From: a virus
Direction: 5' to 3' (one strand)
Virus record (IMG/VR): IMGVR_UViG_3300030098_004604
Location: 11,114-58,574 of that record
DNA length: 47,461 nucleotides
Each line of letters starts with the position of its first letter. Position 1 is the first letter of the stretch. Below, in pieces: positions 3 to 47,450 of this stretch. The notes beneath the pieces were generated by a model. The model made no database searches. It was not told the DNA's origin and was given only the letters and a program-made list of their open reading frames with translations. Position numbers and translations under genes: made by a program.

Positions 3-1112
3 TATGAGTTTGTTGCCTCTATTAATATCGATGAACTGAGAGAGAAGCAGGTTGTTGCAGAAAGTGTGCAGGCCAAGATTGACAAGCTGCAAAAAGAGAT
101 GGCCGAGATTGACAAGAAGCAGGAGCTTTTGAACAGCATTCCTTGTGGCGACTCGTTCCCCACCTGTCGCTTTATAAAAGACGCACACATTGCCGTAGCC
201 ACGCAAGAGGTCACAGAGCATGAATTGTCCTCTGCAGTCGCCGCGCTTTCGGAAATGGGTGCTGATGATGTCAAGAGAAAAATCTCCCAGTTCGAAACGA
301 TTGAGGCTTTAGCTGAGTCGTTAGAAAGGCAAATCTCTACTCTGCAACTTAAGCGAGAGAGAAACAAGAATGCCAAGACAAACATAGAGTTTCAGCTAAG
401 AGAAGTTGAATCAAAAATCGAAGAGTACAACGATAACAGGGATGTTATCGAGAACCTAGAAAAACTATTAAACGAAAAGGAAGAACATGAAAAGGAAATC
501 GAACTTTCGCAAGCTAAGATCAAACGCTGCGAGAAGAAGACGCTTGACTTATACAAACAAATTGGCTCTGAGGAGCAAAAACTACAATCCCTTCGGGATG
601 AGCGAGCCTCCCACCTTAGATTGCGACGAGAGTTTGCAGCCTACGATCTCTTCATGCGATGTATGCACGCAAACGGAATTGCCTACGACGTAATCAAAAA
701 GAAGATTCCAGTTATCAATCAGGAGATTGCAAAGATTCTTGCGAACATTGTTGACTTTGAGATCTTCTTTGAGAGCAATGGAAATAAGTTTGATATTTTT
801 ATCAAGCATCCGCTGCATGATGAAAGACCAATTGAAATGGCTTCTGGTGCGGAAAAGACAATGGCTGCGATGGCTATTCGATTGGCGCTTCTTAGCGTTT
901 CGTCGTTGCCAAAGGCAGACTTGTTTATTCTTGACGAACCCGGAACTGCATTAGACGAAGAAAATATGGAGGGGTTTATTAGGATATTGGAACTAATTAA
1001 AGTGTATTTTAAGAACGTTTTGCTGATCTCCCACCTTGACTCGCTCAAAGACTGTGTAGATATGCAGATTGTTATTGAGAAAAACAAAGGATTCGCAAGG
1101 GTAAACCAATGA
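3..1112 (+). CDS. 46: gp46-like recombination nuclease subunit (SbcC/Rad50 family), 5' truncated
   Basis: The reading frame is open to the left edge, so the N-terminus with Walker A lies outside the window. What remains is a long coiled coil broken by a zinc-hook-like apex (PCGDSFPTC near 139-165), then the ABC signature region (ASGAEKT near 841-858) and Walker B (LFILDEPG near 922-945). This order is the C-terminal half of the SbcC/Rad50/T4 gp46 family, the ATPase subunit that works with gp47 to resect DNA ends during recombination-dependent replication. The hook has six residues between its cysteines rather than the usual two. The gene overlaps the next one by four bases (ATGA), so the two are probably translationally coupled. 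Confidence 0.9.
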   Translation, partial: YEFVASINIDELREKQVVAESVQAKIDKLQKEMAEIDKKQELLNSIPCGDSFPTCRFIKDAHIAVATQEVTEHELSSAVAALSEMGADDVKRKISQFETIEALAESLERQISTLQLKRERNKNAKTNIEFQLREVESKIEEYNDNRDVIENLEKLLNEKEEHEKEIELSQAKIKRCEKKTLDLYKQIGSEEQKLQSLRDERASHLRLRREFAAYDLFMRCMHANGIAYDVIKKKIPVINQEIAKILANIVDFEIFFESNGNKFDIFIKHPLHDERPIEMASGAEKTMAAMAIRLALLSVSSLPKADLFILDEPGTALDEENMEGFIRILELIKVYFKNVLLISHLDSLKDCVDMQIVIEKNKGFARVNQ

Positions 1113-2263
1113 GTGACAACGATAACGAAAACAAAGATAACAAAAACGAATTTGACTTTCTGCCTCCCGCAGAGCCACCACCCTCCTTCAATCAGGAGAA
1201 AGACCACTATCACGAAGAAGTTGCAGCAGAGGATTTCGGTATGGTCGAGGATTTTGGGCTTCAAATGGAATATTCCGATGAAGACCTCCTCCCTGAAAAT
1301 ACCGCTCCATCTTCATTGAATGTGGGCTTTGTAGGCGTCGGCGGTGGAGGCAACAAAATGGCCAATGCTTTTATTGAGCTTGGTTTCAACAAGACCCTGT
1401 TGGTTAACACCACAGGCAAAGACATTCCAAAGAATGTCGAAGAGGAACACGTTGTCCTCATTCCCGATTCTGACGGAATCGGCAAAAACACAGAATATGG
1501 AAAAGAGGTATTAAGTCAAAATGGCGCAATTGTTGAAGATGCTCTCCGCATCAAACTCGGTAAAGTTGATTGGTTATTCGTCCTTGCTGGCGGTGGTGGT
1601 GGCACCGGTAGTTCTGTTACCGCTCTTCACCCTGTCTTTGAGCGTTACATGCGCTCTGTGCAGTCAAGTGGTAAGGTCGTTTATATAGTTTCATGGCCAA
1701 CGGCTCAAGAAAACCTTAACCCCACAATCGCTCGTAATGCGTTGACGCTGGCAAATGATGTTGCCAAGCACCCGCATATCATCTTAGATAATGAACGAGC
1801 CACACGTTTACTTCGTGGTAGAATCGGCATGCTTGGCATGTATCCGGTCGCCAACACACAATTTGCTAAGTCGTTAGCCCAAGTGCTTAAACTCTCCACA
1901 GAGGACTCACCGATTCAATCTTTTGATTCGAAGGATTTGGAAACATGCTTGGGTAATGACGGTCGCGCCTTTATGGGCTCAACCATGATAAAGGATCCAA
2001 ATACTGGAAAGCTTGGATCGGTGATTCTCCACAACTGCATGAATCGTTCTGCATGCCCGCCCCCCAAGGGCAAGGCCGCAGCCGGCTCTCTAATTTTGGT
2101 TGTCTCTGAGGAGATGGCTTCTGATCCAAAAGTCAGCAAGAACATTGAGTCGGCAATCGCTTATGTCGGCGGTCGATGCGAGACACTTTTCTCTGGCGTT
2201 TATGTCAGAAAGAATGTACCCGGTCTGATTGCGATACTAAGTATGAATGGATTAGCGACATAG
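1109..2263 (+). CDS. FtsZ/tubulin-superfamily GTPase
   Basis: 384 residues. After an acidic, proline-rich N-terminal extension of about 65 residues comes a tubulin-type nucleotide fold: a T1 loop GVGGGGNK (76-83), a glycine-rich loop near 123-131, and the tubulin signature AGGGGGTGSSV (160-170). SFDSKDLE (271-278) places D273 and D276 at the spacing of the catalytic T7-loop aspartates of FtsZ, followed by GRAFMGST, like the FtsZ segment after T7. All elements for polymer-dependent GTP hydrolysis therefore seem present. Phage relatives such as PhuZ and TubZ form filaments that position or segregate DNA; the role here is inferred. It sits directly behind the gp46-like gene. Its last codons are part of a 21-base direct repeat. 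Confidence 0.85.
   Translation: MSDNDNENKDNKNEFDFLPPAEPPPSFNQEKDHYHEEVAAEDFGMVEDFGLQMEYSDEDLLPENTAPSSLNVGFVGVGGGGNKMANAFIELGFNKTLLVNTTGKDIPKNVEEEHVVLIPDSDGIGKNTEYGKEVLSQNGAIVEDALRIKLGKVDWLFVLAGGGGGTGSSVTALHPVFERYMRSVQSSGKVVYIVSWPTAQENLNPTIARNALTLANDVAKHPHIILDNERATRLLRGRIGMLGMYPVANTQFAKSLAQVLKLSTEDSPIQSFDSKDLETCLGNDGRAFMGSTMIKDPNTGKLGSVILHNCMNRSACPPPKGKAAAGSLILVVSEEMASDPKVSKNIESAIAYVGGRCETLFSGVYVRKNVPGLIAILSMNGLAT
2236..2256 (+). repeat. 21-bp direct repeat, left copy
   Basis: ACTAAGTATGAATGGATTAG plus C occurs here, inside the last codons of the tubulin-like gene, and again at 2644-2664 in noncoding sequence. The copies are exact and bracket the small gene at 2273-2644. Confidence 0.9.
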
Positions 2264-2272
2264 GAGATTATA

Positions 2273-2644
2273 ATGGCTAGACGTAAAAACACAAGAAGAA
2301 TTGATCCTCGTTATTTTATTGACGAGAAAATGCAGATACCAACACCGGTAATTAAAAAATGTTTGGCACTAGCAGACAAACTGGAAAGAGGCCCAGATAC
2401 AACAGGTACACAAATATCTGGTGGTGGCGCAGGCGACTACCCAGAATTTCTGCCCCAAACTCCAGAACAGAAAAAACAAGCGCAAGCTGCATACGATGAA
2501 ATTCAAAAACAATTCGACGATGCCCGATGCATGGATACTTTAGAGCGCGCTGAAGCATATGGAGATATTAAACATAACCCACTCACGAATGACCCCTTCG
2601 GCCCGTCATCGGAATCCCCCGGTAGAATGAGACTGAAAAGATAA
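2273..2644 (+). CDS. Small unknown protein with RKNTRR-DPRYF leader
   Basis: 123 residues, started by ATG after TAGGAG. Function not recognised. The N-terminus (RKNTRRIDPRYFIDEK) is nearly the same as that of the 8167 gene (RKNTRRFDPRYFMDEK), also at DNA level, while the remainder differs, so this is a shared N-terminal module on unrelated bodies. The body is hydrophilic, rich in Gln, Pro and Gly, with no membrane segment. Flanking 21-bp direct repeats suggest it was inserted between the tubulin-like gene and the leader-protein cluster. Confidence 0.75.
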   Translation: MARRKNTRRIDPRYFIDEKMQIPTPVIKKCLALADKLERGPDTTGTQISGGGAGDYPEFLPQTPEQKKQAQAAYDEIQKQFDDARCMDTLERAEAYGDIKHNPLTNDPFGPSSESPGRMRLKR

Positions 2645-2664
2645 CTAAGTATGAATGGATTAGC
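2644..2664 (+). repeat. 21-bp direct repeat, right copy
   Basis: Exact noncoding copy of the end of the tubulin-like gene, 408 bp downstream of the original. It looks like the scar of an insertion or duplication that brought in the 2273-2644 gene. Confidence 0.9.
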
Positions 2665-2685
2665 AACTTAAAAGGAATCTAAGCA

Positions 2686-3051
2686 ATGAAAATCACAAAA
2701 TCACAACTTAAACAAATAATCAAGGAAGAACTTGAAGAAGGCTTTATGGATAAAGTAACTGGTATGCTAGGTTCCAAGAAAGAAGAACTTCCTATGAGCG
2801 ATAAGATTGCTGCTGTTCGTAGAATGTTTCTTGACGTTGGCGATGATCTCGACGAGAACGATAAACTCAATAATGCGATGGAAGCCTTGGACGCTCTCGA
2901 ACTCAAGGATGAAGTTGGCGAAGACGATTCTATTGGAAAGAAACTTTGGGACGCATCTTCTAATCTTTATCAAGCCTTCAATGATTTGAATGCACTTTTG
3001 AGGGAAGCCGAGATTATGGCCTTGCGTTCCGAGTACAAGGAAGAAACATAA
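2686..3051 (+). CDS. Leader-family small protein 1
   Basis: 121 residues. It begins with the shared amphipathic leader MKITKSQLKQIIKEE, then LEE-G, a possible (L/I)xE cleavage site for the phage prohead protease. The body is acidic and helical, without a recognised domain. The ribosome site AAAGGAA precedes the ATG. The stop overlaps the next start (TAATG), so the run of leader genes is probably translated from one mRNA. Packaging into the head is inferred from the leader only. Confidence 0.75.
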   Translation: MKITKSQLKQIIKEELEEGFMDKVTGMLGSKKEELPMSDKIAAVRRMFLDVGDDLDENDKLNNAMEALDALELKDEVGEDDSIGKKLWDASSNLYQAFNDLNALLREAEIMALRSEYKEET

Positions 3052-3410
3052 TGAAAATAACAAAATCACAACTTAAACAGATCATCAAGGAAGAGCTTGA
3101 AATTGTGTTAAGCGAGAATAGGCTAAACATGCAAGCGGTCGAAGATGCATTCACGATGGCGGTTGTTGAAAGACCTCCTAAACTGGGATTACCAGTTGCG
3201 GTCACAATCGAAGTGGTAAACAAAAAGCTGGCTGAAACACTTGGATGGGTTCCCGATGAAAATCAGGTATCAATATTCTTAAGACAAATATTGACGGATC
3301 AATCTGTACTAGAACGCCTTGGAATTGAAAAGGTGGATCTAGGATCAGAGATTACACAAACCACAGACGGCATGACTTATAGAAACAAAGAAGCCGCTGC
3401 GAGGGTATAA
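3051..3410 (+). CDS. Leader-family small protein 2
   Basis: 119 residues starting with the identical MKITKSQLKQIIKEE leader, followed by LSE-N at residues 20-23 as a possible protease site. The rest is a mixed alpha/beta sequence with no recognised family. It is nearly identical to its neighbours over the first 45 bases or so and unrelated after that, so the genes share a module and not a whole-protein ancestor. Confidence 0.75.
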   Translation: MKITKSQLKQIIKEELEIVLSENRLNMQAVEDAFTMAVVERPPKLGLPVAVTIEVVNKKLAETLGWVPDENQVSIFLRQILTDQSVLERLGIEKVDLGSEITQTTDGMTYRNKEAAARV

Positions 3411-3411
3411 A

Positions 3412-3789
3412 ATGAAAATCACAAAATCACAACTTAAACAGATTATTAAAGAAGAGCTATCAAACACTCTCAAGCTCAAAGAGAGCATTTCTGTGGAAGC
3501 GTGGGATAATCTTCGATCCGTGCTGGAAAGCAATCAGGAAATCTTTCGCTTGGCATATCAAGACTTAATCAATTCTCATCGTCCCGATCAAATCGACGCA
3601 GACACCGGAGAGCCTGTTGATTCCGACCCCCACACAGAAGCCATGAAACAGATTGTGAGCCTTATTGAACCTTATCTCACCGATGAAGAAGATCCTTGGG
3701 AGCGTGGAGCTTCTTGGGAAGATGACGAAAGCTGGCAAGAAGAAGAAAGAGACATTGAGGGCCGCTCCCCAAAAGGTACTGAACAATGA
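3412..3789 (+). CDS. Leader-family small protein 3
   Basis: 125 residues with the same leader (MKITKSQLKQIIKEE) followed by LKE-S near residue 24. The body is strongly acidic, with a Trp/Glu/Asp-rich C-terminal part (PWERGASWEDDESWQEEE). No known domain. The ATG overlaps the next gene's start region by four bases (3786-3789). Confidence 0.75.
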   Translation: MKITKSQLKQIIKEELSNTLKLKESISVEAWDNLRSVLESNQEIFRLAYQDLINSHRPDQIDADTGEPVDSDPHTEAMKQIVSLIEPYLTDEEDPWERGASWEDDESWQEEERDIEGRSPKGTEQ

Positions 3790-4106
3790 AAATTACAAAG
3801 AAACAGCTTAAACAGATCATTAAGGAAGAAATAGAGAGCACTTTAAAAGAGTACATCGGGCGACCTCTGCACAGGCCATACAGTGACGCGGAGCAAAAAG
3901 AGCGCGACAAACAGGGCGCGCTTCGTCAAGCCGCAGTGGAGGAGCTTAATAACAACGAAGAAGCCGGCGCGCTTTGGGATAAGCTTCGAGACCACACGTA
4001 TGGCTCCGAAGAAGAATACAACACGGATTTAAACGCATTTGCAGCGCTCTTCCCCAAGAACTTGCAAGCCATGGCGAAGAAACTTGTGGCCATGAACCAA
4101 CATTAA
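3786..4106 (+). CDS. Leader-family small protein 4
   Basis: 106 residues. Leader variant MKITKKQLKQIIKEE, then LKE-Y near residue 22 as a possible cleavage site. The remainder is charged and helical, with no recognised domain. Coupled by ATGA overlap to the gene before it. Confidence 0.75.
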   Translation: MKITKKQLKQIIKEEIESTLKEYIGRPLHRPYSDAEQKERDKQGALRQAAVEELNNNEEAGALWDKLRDHTYGSEEEYNTDLNAFAALFPKNLQAMAKKLVAMNQH

Positions 4107-4117
4107 GGAACAGCACA

Positions 4118-4645
4118 ATGAAGATCACCAGAACACAACTTAAAGCTTTAATTCGCGAACAGGTCGCAGCAGTCATTAACGAAACAGACTGGCGCGATGT
4201 TTCTGATCCGGACTATCACAAACCTCAAGGAGAAGCCGGCCCGTATGCTGACTTCAAGGAAGGTATGCCAGAAGTCGCCGGCCTCATGTCTCAGGCAGGA
4301 GCATACGCGATGCCCCCCGCCGCCATGCAGAGGTTAATGCGAGTCATTAAAGAATTTGCGCCGCACCTTCCCGACGAAGAGTTGCTGAATTTTGCTCAAC
4401 AGCTTATTGATGCTGGTGCCCTTGAAACTGCGCTATCGGCCCCCAAAGGCACATTGCAGGAGGACAAGGAGGGCAAAGGCAAGTGTCCTTCTGACGGCTG
4501 TGTTCAAGCTCGCGAAGGTCACTGGGTTGTAATCTCAAATAAGACTGGAGAGTGTTGGGGAAGAAGTAAGAAAGAAGGCGGCAAATGCACTCAGTATGAT
4601 TCTCGTAAGGATGCCGAGGCAGCCTTGGATGCATATCACGCATAA
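4118..4645 (+). CDS. Leader-family protein 5 with cysteine-containing C-terminal domain
   Basis: 175 residues. Diverged leader MKITRTQLKALIREQ, then INE-T near residue 22. The C-terminal 60 residues contain four cysteines (CPSDGC, ECW, KCT) around a short beta-type segment (GHWVVISNKTGECWG) and end in an SRKDAEAALDAYHA helix. This small fold recalls short domains at the ends of other phage proteins, but its function is unknown. The cysteines could bind zinc or form disulfides. Confidence 0.75.
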   Translation: MKITRTQLKALIREQVAAVINETDWRDVSDPDYHKPQGEAGPYADFKEGMPEVAGLMSQAGAYAMPPAAMQRLMRVIKEFAPHLPDEELLNFAQQLIDAGALETALSAPKGTLQEDKEGKGKCPSDGCVQAREGHWVVISNKTGECWGRSKKEGGKCTQYDSRKDAEAALDAYHA

Positions 4646-4656
4646 GGAACTAAACA

Positions 4657-5124
4657 ATGAACACAATATTTGAAAATTGGAGAATTGACCTTCTATATGA
4701 AGAGTGGCTAAAGAATAGGTCGCTCAATGAGGGGCAGTCTAGGTTTACATTGGCACAGGCGGCCACCATTCTTGGTCTCCACCCCAAACAAGCCAAAAAG
4801 AAGCCGCTCAATAAAGTCATGGCCATCAAAGCTAAAGAGAAATATCGGCAGTTGGCCTTGAAGTATCATCCGGATCGGAACCCGGACAATCCCGAAGCGG
4901 AAGCCAAGTTTAAAGAGGTGTCCGAAGCATACGCCGTTCTTACGGACGATGATATCACCCCGGCCCCCGCGAAGGCGTCCGACTCCAGCGGCCAAGCACA
5001 AGGCTCAACCACCCCTGAGCCAAACAACGACAAGAGTGAATTGTACAACACGATTATACAAGCGATGGGTAAGGCGTTTGCCCGACCACAAGCTGCGGTT
5101 GCAGAAGGAAAACAAAAGAAATGA
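4657..5124 (+). CDS. J-domain (DnaJ-like) protein
   Basis: 155 residues. Residues about 31-96 form a J domain: helix I ([11 protein letters not shown]), a lengthened basic loop, helix II ending [10 protein letters not shown] with the essential HPD (71-73), and helix III ([15 protein letters not shown]). J domains stimulate Hsp70 (DnaK) ATPase and recruit it to clients. No Gly/Phe or zinc region follows, only a low-complexity tail. The N-terminus differs from the MKITK leader but also ends in LNE-G (residues 23-26), resembling a prohead-protease site. It lies within the leader-gene cluster, so it could be a packaged or late assembly co-chaperone; this is inference. Confidence 0.85.
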
Positions 5125-5417
5125 ATTTATTGAGCAGAATTACAGGGTGGTTCTCTAAACCTACTCCCGTCACAGTTGTTGAAGAAGCGGAAGAGGTTGT
5201 TGTAGCTGATGAAGCTGGCGAGTCCGCTGGTGAAATCTTCACTAGACTTTGCCGCACCGCCGGCGTTAAGAACAGAGAGCTAATCAAGGTAAGCGCCGCC
5301 GAAGTTTTTGAGGCGTGGTATGTTGGACCGGTGTCGGATGCAGCTATCTTAGAGGCAATTTCGACATTCAAGAACGAACACCCCGGCATCAGCGCAAAAC
5401 TATCAGGGAAGATTTAA
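5121..5417 (+). CDS. Small unknown protein
   Basis: 98 residues, ATGA-coupled to the J-domain gene. The N-terminus ([12 protein letters not shown]) is amphipathic, followed by a Val/Glu/Ala-rich linker and a compact C-terminal helical part. No family recognised. Confidence 0.65.
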
Positions 5418-5418
5418 A

Positions 5419-6255
5419 ATGAATATTACTAAAGCTAGATTAATTGAAATCATCAAAGAAGAGGTGATTAAAGAGGCAGGCGGAGTCGCCGGCAACTTTG
5501 GCGGTGTTGCTACAGAGTTGGGCGCCCAGCGCGCCGACGGCAACGATTTGCCAGACCACGACCTCTACGGCCCACAGCAGACAGCCGAAGACAATTTTGT
5601 TGGCATCTTAAATGAAATTGGTCACATGCTCGATGCATGGGAGAAGAAGAAGTATCCCTCTGACGAGGCCCGATACATGAGCTATTTTGAAGATCTTCAA
5701 GGGCTGCTTGAGCAGTACGATCCTTGCGCCCATGTTGGGCAGAAGTGCGAGGACGTTCATCCAAACCAAAGCCACGAAGAGTGTGTGGAGGTTACGATTA
5801 ACAATGCGCTTTACGAGGCGGCTCAAAAAAGACTTAACGAAATGTACCCGCGCAGACGCGGACACTCAGCGCGATCTAATGTCGCGGGACCGGTCAACCC
5901 CAAGCGAAAATTAAAATACGGAGAGAAATGTCCGGCCGGCTACAAGTTAGGGCTTACGGATTATTGTGAGAAAATCGGCGCCCGCCCGAAGGACATCGAG
6001 AACGCAATTAACGACATTGAAAACCCTAACCGGTCCGGCGGCTATGGTGGACTTGAAGAGGAAAACAGCTGACCAGACAAAGAGGGCTCAGGTGAGCTTG
6101 GAGAAGTTTTAGGACCAGATGCGGAAGTTGGCGAATATATTGAAGATTTTCAAGATTCCGATGCTCCCCAGTTTAAGGGAAAGAGCAAGAAGAAAAAAGC
6201 CCAAATGGCCTACGCGGCCCACGCAGCAGCCAAAGAAAAAAGAGGTAAAAAATGA
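5419..6255 (+). CDS. Leader-family protein 6 interrupted by an in-frame UGA
   Basis: Codons 1-217 (5419-6069) encode a protein with leader variant MNITKARLIEIIKEE and IKE-A as possible cleavage site. A TGA follows at 6070-6072. The same frame stays open for 60 more codons to TGA at 6253-6255, with protein-like sequence ending in a basic tail (DAPQFKGKSKKKKAQMAY near 6157-6216). No start codon lies near the start of the extension, and its stop forms an ATGA overlap with the next gene. The extension is therefore probably part of this gene. Readthrough, a nonsense mutation or a base error are all possible. The protein would be 217 or 278 residues; function unknown. Confidence 0.7.
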
Positions 6256-7607: not shown

Positions 7608-8170
7608 TGGCAACAGTTTATGAAATAGTACAAGGTTTGGCGCAAGCAGCCGCTAACGCATATGATGGCGCGCTTGGCGAAGATTATGAGCCCGACAAGC
7701 CCGGCATTCTACGCAGAGAAGAGGGTAACGCCCTCATCGATCAGCGTGTGATGGACGGCTTTAACGTCCGGTTTTATGGCAACAAGATGTGCTTGTCCTA
7801 TCACTCGGAGATTAAGTTGAAGGAAGTTTATGCCTCCGGCTTTGAGACCGAGATGGAGCAGCGAATCGCTGACATCGCAGGCTGGCTCAAGAAAGAATAC
7901 AAAAAGATTACAGGCAACTCGGTTAGCCTTACGGAATTGGGCGAAATCGACGTTCGCGTTGAGAACTCTTCTCGCGTTAGAACTTGGGTCACAGCCAAGA
8001 TGAATTATACCGTTGGTGGGCTTGATGAGGATTTGGCAATTGAAAAGCCTTCGAAGGATCGCCTCGACAAGAATTGGAAAAGTTTCCTTGATCAGGGCGG
8101 CTGGAATGGTGAAGGTGGCAAGCGCCCCGACAACGATTCCCGCAAGAAAGACAAGGGACCACAATCATGA
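7607..8170 (+). CDS. Unknown conserved-looking phage protein
   Basis: 187 residues, ATG after GGAG. A soluble alpha/beta protein with no recognised catalytic motif. The tail (residues about 165-187) is rich in Gly, Lys and Asp. The end overlaps the next gene by four bases. It stands just ahead of the head-packaging genes, but nothing in the sequence ties it to them. Confidence 0.65.
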   Translation: MATVYEIVQGLAQAAANAYDGALGEDYEPDKPGILRREEGNALIDQRVMDGFNVRFYGNKMCLSYHSEIKLKEVYASGFETEMEQRIADIAGWLKKEYKKITGNSVSLTELGEIDVRVENSSRVRTWVTAKMNYTVGGLDEDLAIEKPSKDRLDKNWKSFLDQGGWNGEGGKRPDNDSRKKDKGPQS

Positions 8171-8625
8171 AACGCAAAAATACAAGACGCTTTGATCCTC
8201 GTTACTTTATGGACGAGAAGACCGAGAAGCCAAAAGTAATCAAAGAAGCAGCAGAAGAGACTGACTGGACTAGAGTGACAGGACTCGGCGACGACCCATC
8301 CTCCCACCCAGATAAACAAGAGATTGTGCAGAAATGCTGGCACAAAACTAAGCATCTGAAGAAGGGTGAGTTTGTTACAGCATTCAATGCGTGCATGGAA
8401 GAAGCCCTGCTATCCATGGCAGAGGGTCTTGGTGACGTCGGAATGTACGACTTCAGTAGCGGCAAAGCTAAGCGTGTTACACCCACGTATATAGCCCGAT
8501 CAACTGATAAACACGATTGGGTTCAAGAAGCAGCAAACGCATTATCAGAGGAACCGCCGAATGTCGAAGAGGCACTTGAAGCCCTCAACAACGAACTCGA
8601 ACTGCGCAGCCGCTCGCCCAAATAA
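8167..8625 (+). CDS. Small unknown protein with RKNTRR-DPRYF leader
   Basis: 152 residues. The first 20 (KRKNTRRFDPRYFMDEK) match the start of the 2273 gene, and IKE-A near residue 26 could be a prohead-protease site. The body has two helical stretches (HPDKQEIVQKCWHKTKHLKK and FVTAFNACMEEALLSM) and an acidic C-terminal part. It lies directly upstream of the large terminase, where a small terminase could be expected, but I see no DNA-binding motif that would support that. Confidence 0.65.
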   Translation: MKRKNTRRFDPRYFMDEKTEKPKVIKEAAEETDWTRVTGLGDDPSSHPDKQEIVQKCWHKTKHLKKGEFVTAFNACMEEALLSMAEGLGDVGMYDFSSGKAKRVTPTYIARSTDKHDWVQEAANALSEEPPNVEEALEALNNELELRSRSPK

Positions 8626-8638
8626 CTAACAAAAATGA

Positions 8639-10222
8639 ATGACTTTTCAATTAGACAAGAAACAAAGAGTAAAGGAAATATTAAAGTGCGGTAAGGATCC
8701 TGCTTACTTCTTGAAGACGTATGCCCGTATATCACACCCGATGCACGGGCTTATTCTTTTTAATACTTATGACTTTCAAGATGATCTCCTCACAGACTTT
8801 AATGACTATCGCTTTAATGTAATCCTCAAAGCGCGCCAGCTTGGTATCTCTACAATTACCGCTGGCTACATCGTATGGATGATGCTCTTCCATCGCGATA
8901 AAGCTGTACTTGTTATGGCCACCAAGTTTGCCACAGCAGGAAACTTAGTTAACAAGGTCAAGAAGATTATGAAGAATCTCCCTGATTGGATTCGTATTGC
9001 CGATATTGATATTGATAATAGAACGTCGTTTATCTTGTCTAATGGTTCTTCGATTAAGGCCGCCTCCACTTCTGGTGATGCCGGTCGTTCGGAAGCTTTG
9101 TCGCTTTTGGTTCTTGATGAGGCAGCCCACATTGAAGGTTTGGAAGAGTTGTGGACAGGTTTGTATCCAACACTTTCGACAGGTGGTCGCTGCATTGCGC
9201 TTTCGACCCCAAACGGCGTTGGTAACTGGTTCCACAAGACGTGCATGGATGCAGACGCAGGTGCCAACAATTTCAATTTGACAACATTGATGTGGGATGT
9301 ACACCCAGAACGGGATGAAGAGTGGTTTAAGAAAGAAACCAAGAACATGTCTAAGCGCCAGATTGCGCAGGAGCTAGAATGCAACTTCAACACATCCGGC
9401 GACACAGTTATAGATCCAGAAGATATGCAGTGGCTGCTAGCCAACGTAAAAGAGCCAAAGTACAGAACGGGGTTTGATAGAAACTTTTGGATTTGGGAGG
9501 AGTTCGATCCTTCATGCAATTATTTAATGGTTGCCGATGTCGCCCGGGGCGATGGTGAGGATTTTTCAACCTTCCATATTATCAAATTAGAGACCTTGGA
9601 GGTTGTCGGAGAATACCAAGGGAAGCTAACACCAGATATGTTTGCTGCTATGTTAAACCAAACAGCACGAGAGTTTGGCAACTGCATGCTGGTGGTAGAA
9701 AATAATAATATTGGCTACACAGTTTTGGATAAGCTGATAGAATATGAGTATCCCAACATATATTTTTCCATAAAGTCAACTCATGAATATATTGAACAAT
9801 ATCAAGCGGAGCATCGCACGTCGGCGGTGCCGGGGTTTTCGACAAGCGTGAAGACCCGTCCGCTCATCATTGCGAAATTAGAAGAGTTTATAAGAAACAA
9901 ACTAATTAAACTATATTCTGCTCGTACTATCAACGAAATGAAGACTTTTATATGGAGGAACGGCAAGCCTCAAGCTATGAAGGGGTATCACGACGATCTT
10001 ATTATGGCCTTGGCCATTGCGTGCTGGGTTAGAGACACGGCCCTGCAGGCAAATGCCCGAGACCTTAATTATCAAAAAGCATTTTCAGATGCCATCATAA
10101 CTTCTAGAACAAGCATGAACACACAAATTAAAGGACAACACGGCTACAAGAAAGATAACATCTTAGATCAGATAAACGAGGCTCGTCAAACATACGACGA
10201 ATTTAAATGGATTATAAAGTGA
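8639..10222 (+). CDS. 17: Large terminase subunit (T4 gp17-like)
   Basis: 527 residues, the DNA-packaging motor ATPase and headful nuclease. The N-terminal ATPase domain has the Walker A-type loop KARQLGIST (64-72) and Walker B LLVLDEAA (D160, E161). The C-terminal RNase H-like nuclease has acidic motifs VADVARGDGEDFS, VVENNNIG and YHDDLIMALA. The ATG at 8639 gives the natural N-terminus, although no good Shine-Dalgarno is seen. The portal gene follows after eight bases, as expected for the packaging machine. Confidence 0.96.
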   Translation: MTFQLDKKQRVKEILKCGKDPAYFLKTYARISHPMHGLILFNTYDFQDDLLTDFNDYRFNVILKARQLGISTITAGYIVWMMLFHRDKAVLVMATKFATAGNLVNKVKKIMKNLPDWIRIADIDIDNRTSFILSNGSSIKAASTSGDAGRSEALSLLVLDEAAHIEGLEELWTGLYPTLSTGGRCIALSTPNGVGNWFHKTCMDADAGANNFNLTTLMWDVHPERDEEWFKKETKNMSKRQIAQELECNFNTSGDTVIDPEDMQWLLANVKEPKYRTGFDRNFWIWEEFDPSCNYLMVADVARGDGEDFSTFHIIKLETLEVVGEYQGKLTPDMFAAMLNQTAREFGNCMLVVENNNIGYTVLDKLIEYEYPNIYFSIKSTHEYIEQYQAEHRTSAVPGFSTSVKTRPLIIAKLEEFIRNKLIKLYSARTINEMKTFIWRNGKPQAMKGYHDDLIMALAIACWVRDTALQANARDLNYQKAFSDAIITSRTSMNTQIKGQHGYKKDNILDQINEARQTYDEFKWIIK

Positions 10223-44579: not shown

Positions 44580-45755
44580 GTGCTTTTTCAAACTCTGGAT
44601 GACAAGAGCGAATGTGTGGGAGTCTACGCTGACGGTAGCTTGCACTTCGACACCATCCCCACAGGTCTGACTAAAACATGGAAATACACAGGATCGATTA
44701 AAGATCCGGCCGTGGAGTACGCTTGGATTTATGCCGGCGGTGGCACACTGGAGCAAAGCTGCCCGGATGAACTGAAGGAAGATTGGCAACGATGCCAGAA
44801 GCGCTTCGCGGCATACCGTCGGGCATTTGAGATTGGTAAGATTGATCTTCGGGAACACTGCTTTTTTGATCTTGTGCCCTCAACCTTTTTGGAAGACTTC
44901 TGCGACGTTAAGAATAAGATCACCGAGCACGTGTTCGCCAACACAGAGCGCCCGGAAAACTATGACATGCTCGATGGCTTTCAGAAGCTGATCCACAAGA
45001 TTAAATACCAGAACCTGAACCTGAATAAGGAAGGTTGTCGACAGCTGTATCATAGCACCGTTGGCAGGCGCAAGGCCAATGAGCTTATGAAGAGTCATTA
45101 TTATATCGACTACAACCTCTTCGGGACCGTCACAGGGCGCCTTACTACACGTCGAAATTCGTTTCCTATACTGACACTCAAGAAAGAATTTCGGAAGCTT
45201 GTGAAGCCGCATAACGACTGGTTCGTGTCATTGGATTACAACGGGGCGGAGGTCAGAACGCTGCTCCATCTCTCTGGATATGATCAGCCCAAGACCGACA
45301 TCCACAGCTGGAATGTTAAGCACTTATTTAATCAAGACGTCGACCGAGATACCGCCAAGACGCTCTTCTTTGCATGGCTTTATAACCCTGATTCGGACGC
45401 TATCGAAACAAAGTATTATGATCGTAAAAAAGTGCTTGACAAATGGTACGATGGGGATTATATTAGTACACCATACAAGAGAAAGATCAAAGTTGATGAG
45501 CGTCGCGCACTCAATTACCTCATTCAGAGTTCAACCTCTGATCGAGTGATGAGTCGAGCGGTCGAGATTGATAGATTTCTTGAGGGCAAGAAGTCTTTTG
45601 TGTCTCACATAGTCCATGATGAGATTGTGATTGACTTTTGTGATGAGGACCGGGAGCACTTAAAAGAAATGAAACAGATTTTTGAAGTTGATGATTTCTC
45701 TGCTAATCTCCGCGCTGGCAAGAATTACCTAGAGTTGGAGGAGTTGAAAGTATGA
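44580..45755 (+). CDS. Family A DNA polymerase, polymerase domain only
   Basis: 391 residues, GTG start with GGAGAGG upstream. Motifs of Pol I: TVTGRL (183-188); motif A DYNGAE with Asp219 and Glu224; O-helix R256-K260-F264-Y268; motif C HDE (346-348). Phe264 corresponds to position 762 of E. coli Pol I. No 3'-5' exonuclease domain precedes it: the N-terminal 180 residues show no exonuclease motifs. The protein is small for the family, and T4 itself uses a family B enzyme. A separate exonuclease gene may exist outside the window, as reported for Rhodothermus phage RM378. Confidence 0.93.
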   Translation: MLFQTLDDKSECVGVYADGSLHFDTIPTGLTKTWKYTGSIKDPAVEYAWIYAGGGTLEQSCPDELKEDWQRCQKRFAAYRRAFEIGKIDLREHCFFDLVPSTFLEDFCDVKNKITEHVFANTERPENYDMLDGFQKLIHKIKYQNLNLNKEGCRQLYHSTVGRRKANELMKSHYYIDYNLFGTVTGRLTTRRNSFPILTLKKEFRKLVKPHNDWFVSLDYNGAEVRTLLHLSGYDQPKTDIHSWNVKHLFNQDVDRDTAKTLFFAWLYNPDSDAIETKYYDRKKVLDKWYDGDYISTPYKRKIKVDERRALNYLIQSSTSDRVMSRAVEIDRFLEGKKSFVSHIVHDEIVIDFCDEDREHLKEMKQIFEVDDFSANLRAGKNYLELEELKV

Positions 45756-46594
45756 TCTCCATCATTGGTTTGGGCACCGGAGGCTCCAACATAGCGACCA
45801 TGTTCAAGGAACTGCCACAGTATAATGTATATTGCATTAACGACAAGGTAAAGCGTACGTCGAAGTATAACTTCAAACTTAAGACTCAAGCAACCCCCGA
45901 AGAGTGCGAGAGGGATATCCCAGACATGTCCAAGTTCTTTAGTGCTGTCGATGACCATGTTCAGTTTTTTGTCATTGGCTCAACAATGAGCAGCAACTAT
46001 TCTCTCGGTATTCTGGAACAGATCAAGGACAAAAAGATAGACTTGTTCTATGTGAAGCCAGATACAGAGTTGCTTTCGGGTGTGCCTCGCTTGATGGAGA
46101 ACGCAGCCTTTGGAATACTTCAAGAGTATGCACGCTCTGGCCTTCTGAATAGCATCACTTTGATTTCCAATTTGAAGATGGAAGAGACGCTAGCATCAGT
46201 ACCAGTTAAGCAATACTATCAGTCGTTGAATAGCTTGATTAAGTCGAGCGTACATTATATTAATTACTTCAATCACAACGAGCCAGAAATCGGAATCACC
46301 ACGACTCCCTCTGAGGTTTGTCGAATTAGAACCTTGGGTATGGTTGATATGCAGAAACTTCAAGAAAAGTGGTTTTTTGAGCTTGACATCCCCCGTGAGG
46401 TGTGCTATTATTTATGTATAAATGAGGAAAAACTTGCAAATGATGGCTCTCTTCACAAACGCTATGTGGACATTCTTAAAGAAAAGCCGAGGAACGCTTT
46501 CAGAAATGTGTCATATGCTATTTACGAGACCCCATCGGGTAGAGACTTTGGCTTTTGCGTGGCCAGAACGAACGCAATACAAGAAAACTCTTGA
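45752..46594 (+). CDS. Degenerate tubulin/FtsZ-like protein
   Basis: 280 residues, ATGA-coupled to the polymerase gene. The start ISIIGLGTGGSNIATMFKEL is a tubulin/FtsZ T1-type glycine loop (6-13), and VQFFVIGSTMSSNYSLGILE (about 70-89) is at the place of the tubulin signature, but GGGTGSG is lost. No T7 aspartate pair is seen. It might bind nucleotide weakly, or serve as a cap or partner of the intact tubulin-like protein at 1109. Classification by fold is inferred; a Rossmann-type enzyme is the alternative. Confidence 0.6.
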   Translation: MISIIGLGTGGSNIATMFKELPQYNVYCINDKVKRTSKYNFKLKTQATPEECERDIPDMSKFFSAVDDHVQFFVIGSTMSSNYSLGILEQIKDKKIDLFYVKPDTELLSGVPRLMENAAFGILQEYARSGLLNSITLISNLKMEETLASVPVKQYYQSLNSLIKSSVHYINYFNHNEPEIGITTTPSEVCRIRTLGMVDMQKLQEKWFFELDIPREVCYYLCINEEKLANDGSLHKRYVDILKEKPRNAFRNVSYAIYETPSGRDFGFCVARTNAIQENS

Positions 46595-46676: not shown

Positions 46677-47450
46677 ATGCCAATTGATATGGAACTTATG
46701 CGACGTAAGCTCGCAACCCTTCGCGGAGAAGGAAACAAGGACAACGGAAACTCTCCGTGGTTCAAGCCCGATGAGGGCGATACTGATATTCGGATCGTGC
46801 CAAGTAACGACGGCGATCCGCTCAAGGAAATGTTTTTCCACTACAATGTAGGAAATCACAAGGGTGGCGTGCTTTGCCCCAAGCGTAACTTTGGAGAGCA
46901 CTGCCCAATTTGTGAATTTGCTTCCTCACTTTGGCGAGAGGGAGTTGACAACAACGACGAGGAGAGCAAGAAGCTCGCCAAGTCCCTTTTCGTTCGCACC
47001 CGCTACTTCTCACCAGTTGTAGTTCGTGGTCGCGAGGACGAGGGAATCAAGGTATACGGCTACGGTAAGACCGCATACGAATTGCTTCTCGGCTACATCC
47101 TCGATCCGGAGTATGGCGACATCACAGACGCTGATGAAGGCACCGACATTACTCTGACATACACCAAGCCCACTAAACCGGGTGCCTACCCCCAGACGAG
47201 TCTCAAGATGCGTCGTAACACGTCCACCCTTCTGGACGACCCTGAAGCGATCCCTGCCCTTCTTGATCGCATGCCAGACTTTGACTCTCTTTTTGAGCGT
47301 TTGTCGTCTGCTCAGGTCGATGCCATCCTCGATGAACAACTTTCAAACGATGGTTCCGCAGAAAGTCGTTCGTCTGAGACAGCCAAATATGGTCCCGCCA
47401 ACGGTAAGAGCGATGTTGACCGTGCATTTGATGAGCTAATGAGCGGCTAG
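46677..47450 (+). CDS. 32: Single-stranded DNA-binding protein (T4 gp32-like)
   Basis: 257 residues, strong ribosome site (AAAGGAG). Basic N-terminus (ELMRRKLATLRGEG) like the gp32 cooperativity region, an OB-fold core with a zinc site (CPKRNFGEHCPICEF preceded by HYNVGNHKGG), and a disordered acidic tail (SDVDRAFDELMSG) that in T4 recruits replication proteins. It coats ssDNA in replication and recombination. T4 gp32 has 301 residues. The stop lies 11 bases from the window end. Confidence 0.92.
   Translation: MPIDMELMRRKLATLRGEGNKDNGNSPWFKPDEGDTDIRIVPSNDGDPLKEMFFHYNVGNHKGGVLCPKRNFGEHCPICEFASSLWREGVDNNDEESKKLAKSLFVRTRYFSPVVVRGREDEGIKVYGYGKTAYELLLGYILDPEYGDITDADEGTDITLTYTKPTKPGAYPQTSLKMRRNTSTLLDDPEAIPALLDRMPDFDSLFERLSSAQVDAILDEQLSNDGSAESRSSETAKYGPANGKSDVDRAFDELMSG

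Follow-up and report, generated by a model that had tools for sequence, protein, structure and literature searches.

Two kinds of phage are known to encode tubulins, the nucleus-forming phages with PhuZ and the plasmid-like phages with TubZ. The gene described here belongs to neither setting, as an initial sequence-only reading of the DNA had proposed. It was found in the window, the 47,461-nucleotide stretch of DNA analyzed here, which lies within a 73-kb viral record, and members of its tubulin family occur on about 180 marine viral contigs, among which are closed genomes 195 and 203 kb in length. The carriers form a widespread group of large marine phages that has never been isolated, and searches of the open-access literature found no description of it. 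BFVD contains phage proteins that were named FtsZ or tubulin automatically, and so annotations of this kind already exist for phages.

The gene occupies positions 1109 to 2263 of the window on the plus strand and encodes a protein of 384 residues. Its assignment to the tubulin/FtsZ family of GTPases was borne out by Pfam (PF00091 Tubulin, E = 8.3e-9, with a score of 36.4 bits where the cut-off is 33), by a phmmer match of residues 59-293 to the FtsZ structure 7ohh (E = 4.8e-12), by Foldseek and by the relatives. The T1 loop GVGGGGN (residues 76-82, positions 1334-1354), the T4 signature GGGTGS (residues 163-168, positions 1595-1612) and the T7-loop aspartates D273 and D276 (positions 1925-1936) are all where the sequence-only reading had located them and line up with E. 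coli FtsZ, in which the T7 counterpart is NVDFAD (NxDxxD in FtsZ generally). In an alignment of 32 family members that are 50-89% identical to the tubulin of the window, the invariant residues include G76 and G78-81 in T1, N100-T102 in T2, D122, G123 and K126 in T3, G163-S168 in T4, N228 and E229 in T6, N249 in H7, and D273 and D276 in T7. The T1, T3, T4, T6, H7-Asn and T7 residues are likewise invariant in 55 close relatives, and invariance over both sets goes beyond chance.

The predicted structure agrees with this assignment. All of the top 50 Foldseek matches to an AlphaFold model of the protein belong to the tubulin superfamily, the best in PDB being CetZ, TubZ and FtsZ (E = 1e-13 to 1e-12), and the alignments span about 330-380 columns, as is expected of the two-domain tubulin fold. 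The GTPase domain is well modeled and contains the tubulin core; the earlier reading had said that a structure lacking this core would count against it. The C-terminal domain was predicted with low confidence (mean pLDDT of 59.8), yet it aligns over its full length, and the protein stops at the final core strand with no C-terminal tail. Since the nucleotide-binding and T7 motifs are intact, GTP-dependent polymerization of this superfamily member is likely.

Scans of IMG/VR recovered about 120 close relatives (82-97% identity), further members at 78-82% and, through a terminase large subunit (TerL) neighbor, a second clade of 65 loci that are 56-84% identical to their own query; because the scans used exact peptide patterns, these counts are lower bounds. 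A search for intermediate tubulins with DNA patterns from the T1 loop returned only members of the same family or chance matches. The tubulin gene is present in single copy in all 12 large contigs and lies upstream of TerL (8639-10222 in the window, plus strand) in 13/13 loci that have at least 7.2 kb before TerL. The window genome and the distantly related closed genome of 195 kb have 52 proteins in common, and among these the tubulin ranks first in conservation at 93%, ahead of ribonucleotide reductase (85%), TerL (84%), RecA (83%) and the major capsid protein (69%). The pN/pS ratio for the whole gene is 0.094. Synonymous divergence is also low (pS of 0.47, versus 0.66-0.88 for other genes), and in one locus (L366, tubulin at 3913-5043) TerL is 87% identical and the tubulin 62% identical, so that tubulin alleles are exchanged between lineages and recent exchange adds to constraint in producing the high conservation. 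Judged from the genomes sampled, the tubulin is a core and highly conserved gene throughout the phage group.

At the N-terminus of the protein, the sequence-only reading had pointed to an unusual acidic extension of 65 residues. Residues 1-69 (positions 1109-1315) contain 20 acidic and 3 basic residues, and their codons have a pN/pS of 0.041 compared with 0.095 for the core, indicating that purifying selection is stronger on the extension. The acidity thus stands, but the length is not a constant feature and ranges in the family from about 27 residues to far more than 100. What is kept is a short (D)DFDF(V/I)(D/E)xY...LPEN segment directly ahead of the tubulin core, which in the window protein is EDFGMVEDFGLQMEYSDEDLLPEN and aligns with DDFDFVEHYG..LPEN of other members.

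What might such a protein do for the phage? On balance, we lean toward a distinct-lineage phage tubulin that binds GTP and polymerizes head to tail, with D273 and D276 of each subunit completing the GTPase site of its neighbor, and whose dynamic filaments would arrange, within the infected cell, the replication of phage DNA or the assembly of particles. Polymerization, dynamics and the positioning role are what we infer from the family membership, the nucleotide-site and T7 residues, the strong conservation and the group-wide presence that sequence comparison and modeling show. The phage encodes its own replisome, which we counted in favor of this reading. In FtsZ and TubZ, the C-terminal tail tethers a partner. 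Since the marine tubulin has no such tail, the conserved acidic DFDF...Y segment may instead serve as the tether.

The gene upstream of the tubulin says little about this function. The sequence-only reading had noted a gp46-like gene there and had taken its adjacency as a hint of a link to replicating DNA. The homology is real (phrog_77, 3.3e-28), but rather than a separate gene, the open reading frame at 66-1112 (plus strand) is the C-terminal part of an SbcD-SbcC (gp47-gp46-like) fusion, which in a closed relative is a single protein of 1038 residues (L146, 11291-14407, minus strand). In the window genome, the fusion gene is broken by a short run of N at the window start (approximately C1:11103-11116 of G000), and the GTG start of the first open reading frame is an artifact of this gap and the window edge. 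The order SbcDC, cassettes, tubulin, cassettes, spanin-like gene and TerL is fixed across loci. SbcDC is directly beside the tubulin in about a quarter of them, and in the others one to three unrelated, variable cassette genes intervene, so that adjacency tells little of function and the link of the tubulin to recombination through SbcD-SbcC is a weak one.

Four alternative explanations are less favored because each is missing a feature for which the data were searched. The best of them, although we consider it unlikely, is that the tubulin targets the host division ring, co-assembling with or poisoning FtsZ so that division is blocked and the cell enlarges. Bacterial FtsZs are the nearest solved structures by sequence, the T1, T4 and T7 motifs are alike in the two proteins, the T7 region at the longitudinal interface is FtsZ-like, and a profile alignment with E. 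coli FtsZ (hhalign, E = 1.4e-9) extends through the T7 loop. An inhibitor, however, would not need the catalytic residues, and the marine tubulin has retained all of them. Moreover, the unusual N-terminal segment is conserved, and it stands in place of the C-terminal linker and tail peptide of FtsZ. In a maximum-likelihood tree, which was built without CetZ, archaeal or eukaryotic rows and in which the TubZ reference was checked against PDB 4ei7, the marine-phage tubulins form their own clade (94/93) outside FtsZ (100/100) and PhuZ (100/100). The FtsZ matches in the phage collection, some of which are host sequence within viral assemblies, served as FtsZ references only. The marine-phage tubulin is best read from these comparisons as a new type, separate in lineage from both FtsZ and PhuZ.

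Slightly less probable than interference with host FtsZ is a TubZ-type partition system, in which filaments would pull on phage genomes by way of a TubR-like adaptor at a centromere and so segregate them in a plasmid-like state. This idea draws on the nearest phage relative. A search of INPHARED with the tubulin reached gp138 of Bacillus phage G alone (24%, E = 3e-3), and profile alignments made the relation firm (hhalign, E = 1.7e-11 and 3.3e-11). The protein gp138, a putative FtsZ-like protein, also comes from a large phage and has matching T6 (DNE) and T7 (NFDxxDL) motifs; it differs in having a C-terminal extension and no N-terminal one, the reverse of the marine tubulin. In a smaller tree gp138 groups with TubZ, and a joint clade of the marine tubulins with gp138 was neither demonstrated nor rejected (AU p = 0.245), the branches to TubZ and gp138 being long. 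TubZ itself resembles the marine tubulin in fold (Foldseek 2xka, E = 9.8e-13) and in its IDN-type T6 loop. The remaining hallmarks of partition did not appear. No iterons were found beside the tubulin gene at the three loci searched, and no small DNA-binding (TubR-like) neighbor is conserved across about 90 tubulin loci, the neighbors being hypervariable; a distant partner is possible. A search of 72,556 plasmids with the tubulin returned zero matches. The marine tubulin is also without the long H11 helix and C-terminal tail of TubZ, and in Bacillus and Clostridium TubZ this tail recruits the cofactor (PMC3678025).

The variable neighbors of the tubulin constitute a cassette island with features of its own. 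Its repeat came to light in the search for TubZ-type iterons: the final 27 nucleotides of the tubulin gene (positions 2236-2262, plus strand) recur in the window, with 93% identity, at the junction behind the first cassette gene (positions 2644-2670, plus strand). Downstream recurrence at gene junctions, one to four times, was seen in 35/81 loci, including L002, L046, L048, L052, L056 and L068, and never in shuffled sequences, a pattern that would fit the insertion of cassettes at the 3' end of the tubulin gene or their exchange through it. The cassette genes share N-terminal tags. In the window, all on the plus strand, these are a gene with a type 3 tag (MARRKNTRRIDPRYFIDEK; 2273-2644), five consecutive and otherwise unrelated genes with a type 1 tag (MKITKSQLKQIIKEE; 2686-4645), a gene whose product combines an ENWR-type N-terminus with a DnaJ domain (4657-5124; Pfam DnaJ, 6.7e-16) and another gene with a type 1 tag (MNITKARLIEIIKEE; 5419-6072). 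Tagged genes thus cover 2273-6072, with more at 8167-8625 and in the flanks of about 90 related loci.

Altogether, the three tags were found on 252 distinct proteins, 171 of them MKITKSQLKQIIKEE-type, 50 MKKLFENWRKHLNE-type and 31 MARRKNTKRIDPRYFMDEK-type. Outside the tags, these proteins are mostly unrelated and sort into 122 clusters; 91 clusters are singletons, and 7 were seen with more than one tag. An (L/I/M)xE motif is located at residue 12 in types 1 and 2 and at residue 16 in type 3; within residues 10-20 it was seen in 72% of the type 2 proteins and in 100% of those of type 3, against a background of 17%, and the corresponding figure for type 1 is circular because the search pattern required the motif. 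The internal proteins of T-even phages have been described as a diverse set whose common feature is a capsid targeting sequence alone (PMC3012670), and the island resembles them in its diverse proteins with a shared N-terminal tag and (L/I)xE site and in the gp21-type protease that the phage encodes. It differs from them in having three tags, far more cassettes and the tubulin 3'-end repeat at its junctions. By this analogy, the tags are candidate capsid-targeting sequences and the island a candidate set of exchangeable proteins packaged in the virion.

Given where the gene lies, the tubulin could itself be a virion or head-assembly protein, with the prohead protease cutting it at LPE63|N64 during maturation, but this explanation is improbable. 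It sits inside an island of tagged proteins and its LPE fits the (L/I)xE form, and yet the protein carries no tag of the three types. The glutamate of the putative site is not conserved (relatives have LPQ, LPD, LTE, LDE or LAD), for which reason it was rejected as a prohead-protease site.

The genomes that carry the tubulin are of mixed character. The sequence-only reading had called the phage T4-type, and the virion genes agree with this description, as they include homologs of gp17, gp20, gp21, gp23 and gp18. The replication genes do not: they encode a bacterial-type replisome, with a DnaE-type Pol III alpha subunit, DnaB, DnaG, a PolA-like protein and a gp32-like single-strand DNA-binding protein, and none of the T4 replisome proteins gp43, gp44/62 and gp45, which mark Straboviridae, was detected by phmmer. 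The related closed genomes are 195.3 kb and 203.1 kb in length, with end repeats of 127 bp and 119 bp, respectively. The 195-kb relative encodes, besides Pol III alpha (L153, 5801-9232), an IMP dehydrogenase for GTP supply (L153, 2179-3201), a B12-dependent ribonucleotide reductase (L153, 12292-14259) and GroEL (G002, 136381-137961).

The signals that bear on the host disagree with the kinship of TerL. The head and tail genes are nearest to those of Flavobacterium phage immuto (48.5% for TerL), and the sole match among genome contigs (L144, PAAD01000063.1) was binned in a Flavobacteriaceae metagenome-assembled genome. Shine-Dalgarno-like motifs, however, precede 60-63% of starts in two genomes of the group (G000 and G002; background of 8-9%), compared with 1% in immuto, the nearest isolate. 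A Bacteroidota host is unlikely on the basis of this usage, and the contig was probably assigned to the wrong bin.

Genomes of 195-203 kb that encode a protein of the PhuZ superfamily bring to mind the spindle of the phage nucleus in Chimalliviridae. PhuZ and the marine tubulin share the T4 signature and the T7 aspartate. No detectable pairwise or profile relation connects them (hhalign, E = 0.32): searches with PhuZ recovered 179 PhuZ-bearing records, the marine family was never among them, and the reverse searches did not reach PhuZ. The marine protein also does not have the acidic C-terminal knuckle of PhuZ. A spindle of this kind is very improbable, since chimallin was detected in 0/4 near-complete genomes by searches that were positive for 4/5 control phages.

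Returning to the reading that we favor, dynamic filaments of a distinct-lineage phage tubulin, a second gene in the window raises the possibility of a partner. A gene at 45752-46594 (plus strand; counterpart in G002 at 162051-162893) encodes a 280-residue protein that we refer to as the pseudo-tubulin. It sits in the replication cluster, between a PolA-like gene that overlaps its start (44580-45755, plus strand; DNA_pol_A, 6.2e-15) and the gene for the gp32-like single-strand DNA-binding protein (46677-47450, plus strand; gp32, 4.5e-15; phrog_1192, 2.2e-25). Its sequence has no credible match in Pfam, PHROG or PDB and none in INPHARED; a second match in phage G, to a putative kinase, was judged to be chance. 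The best of five AlphaFold2 models has a pLDDT of 86 and a pTM of 0.86, with pLDDT of 62-68 for the other four, and it matches FtsZ and TubZ in PDB over its own length (Foldseek, E = 1.9e-12, TM up to 0.72) and phage FtsZ/tubulins as the top matches in BFVD (E = 8e-12). The pseudo-tubulin is thus predicted to have the tubulin fold, a claim that leans on the model because the profile match to the tubulin is weak (hhalign, E = 0.0031, T1 region only). It is degenerate, having GSxxSSNY where GGGTGS is expected and HxEPEIG, which is not fully conserved, where NxDxxD is expected.

The tubulin and the pseudo-tubulin occur together in 12/12 contigs of at least 115 kb, and this co-occurrence suggests that they may act jointly. 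It is possible, although we hold the idea only tentatively, that they form a previously undescribed two-component system in which the catalytic tubulin is paired with a degenerate partner from the replication cluster, which would act as a filament cap or nucleator or as a link between the filaments and the phage replisome. Any tie of the tubulin to DNA, capsids or the pseudo-tubulin would likewise be drawn from co-occurrence. If the two-component proposal is true, these proteins would represent, in marine phages with no detectable phage nucleus, the phage equivalent of hetero-tubulin systems. More broadly, a separate tubulin lineage is a core gene in widespread marine phages that have T4-like virions and in which chimallin was not detected, which would mean that phages can organize infection with active filaments independently of a phage nucleus.
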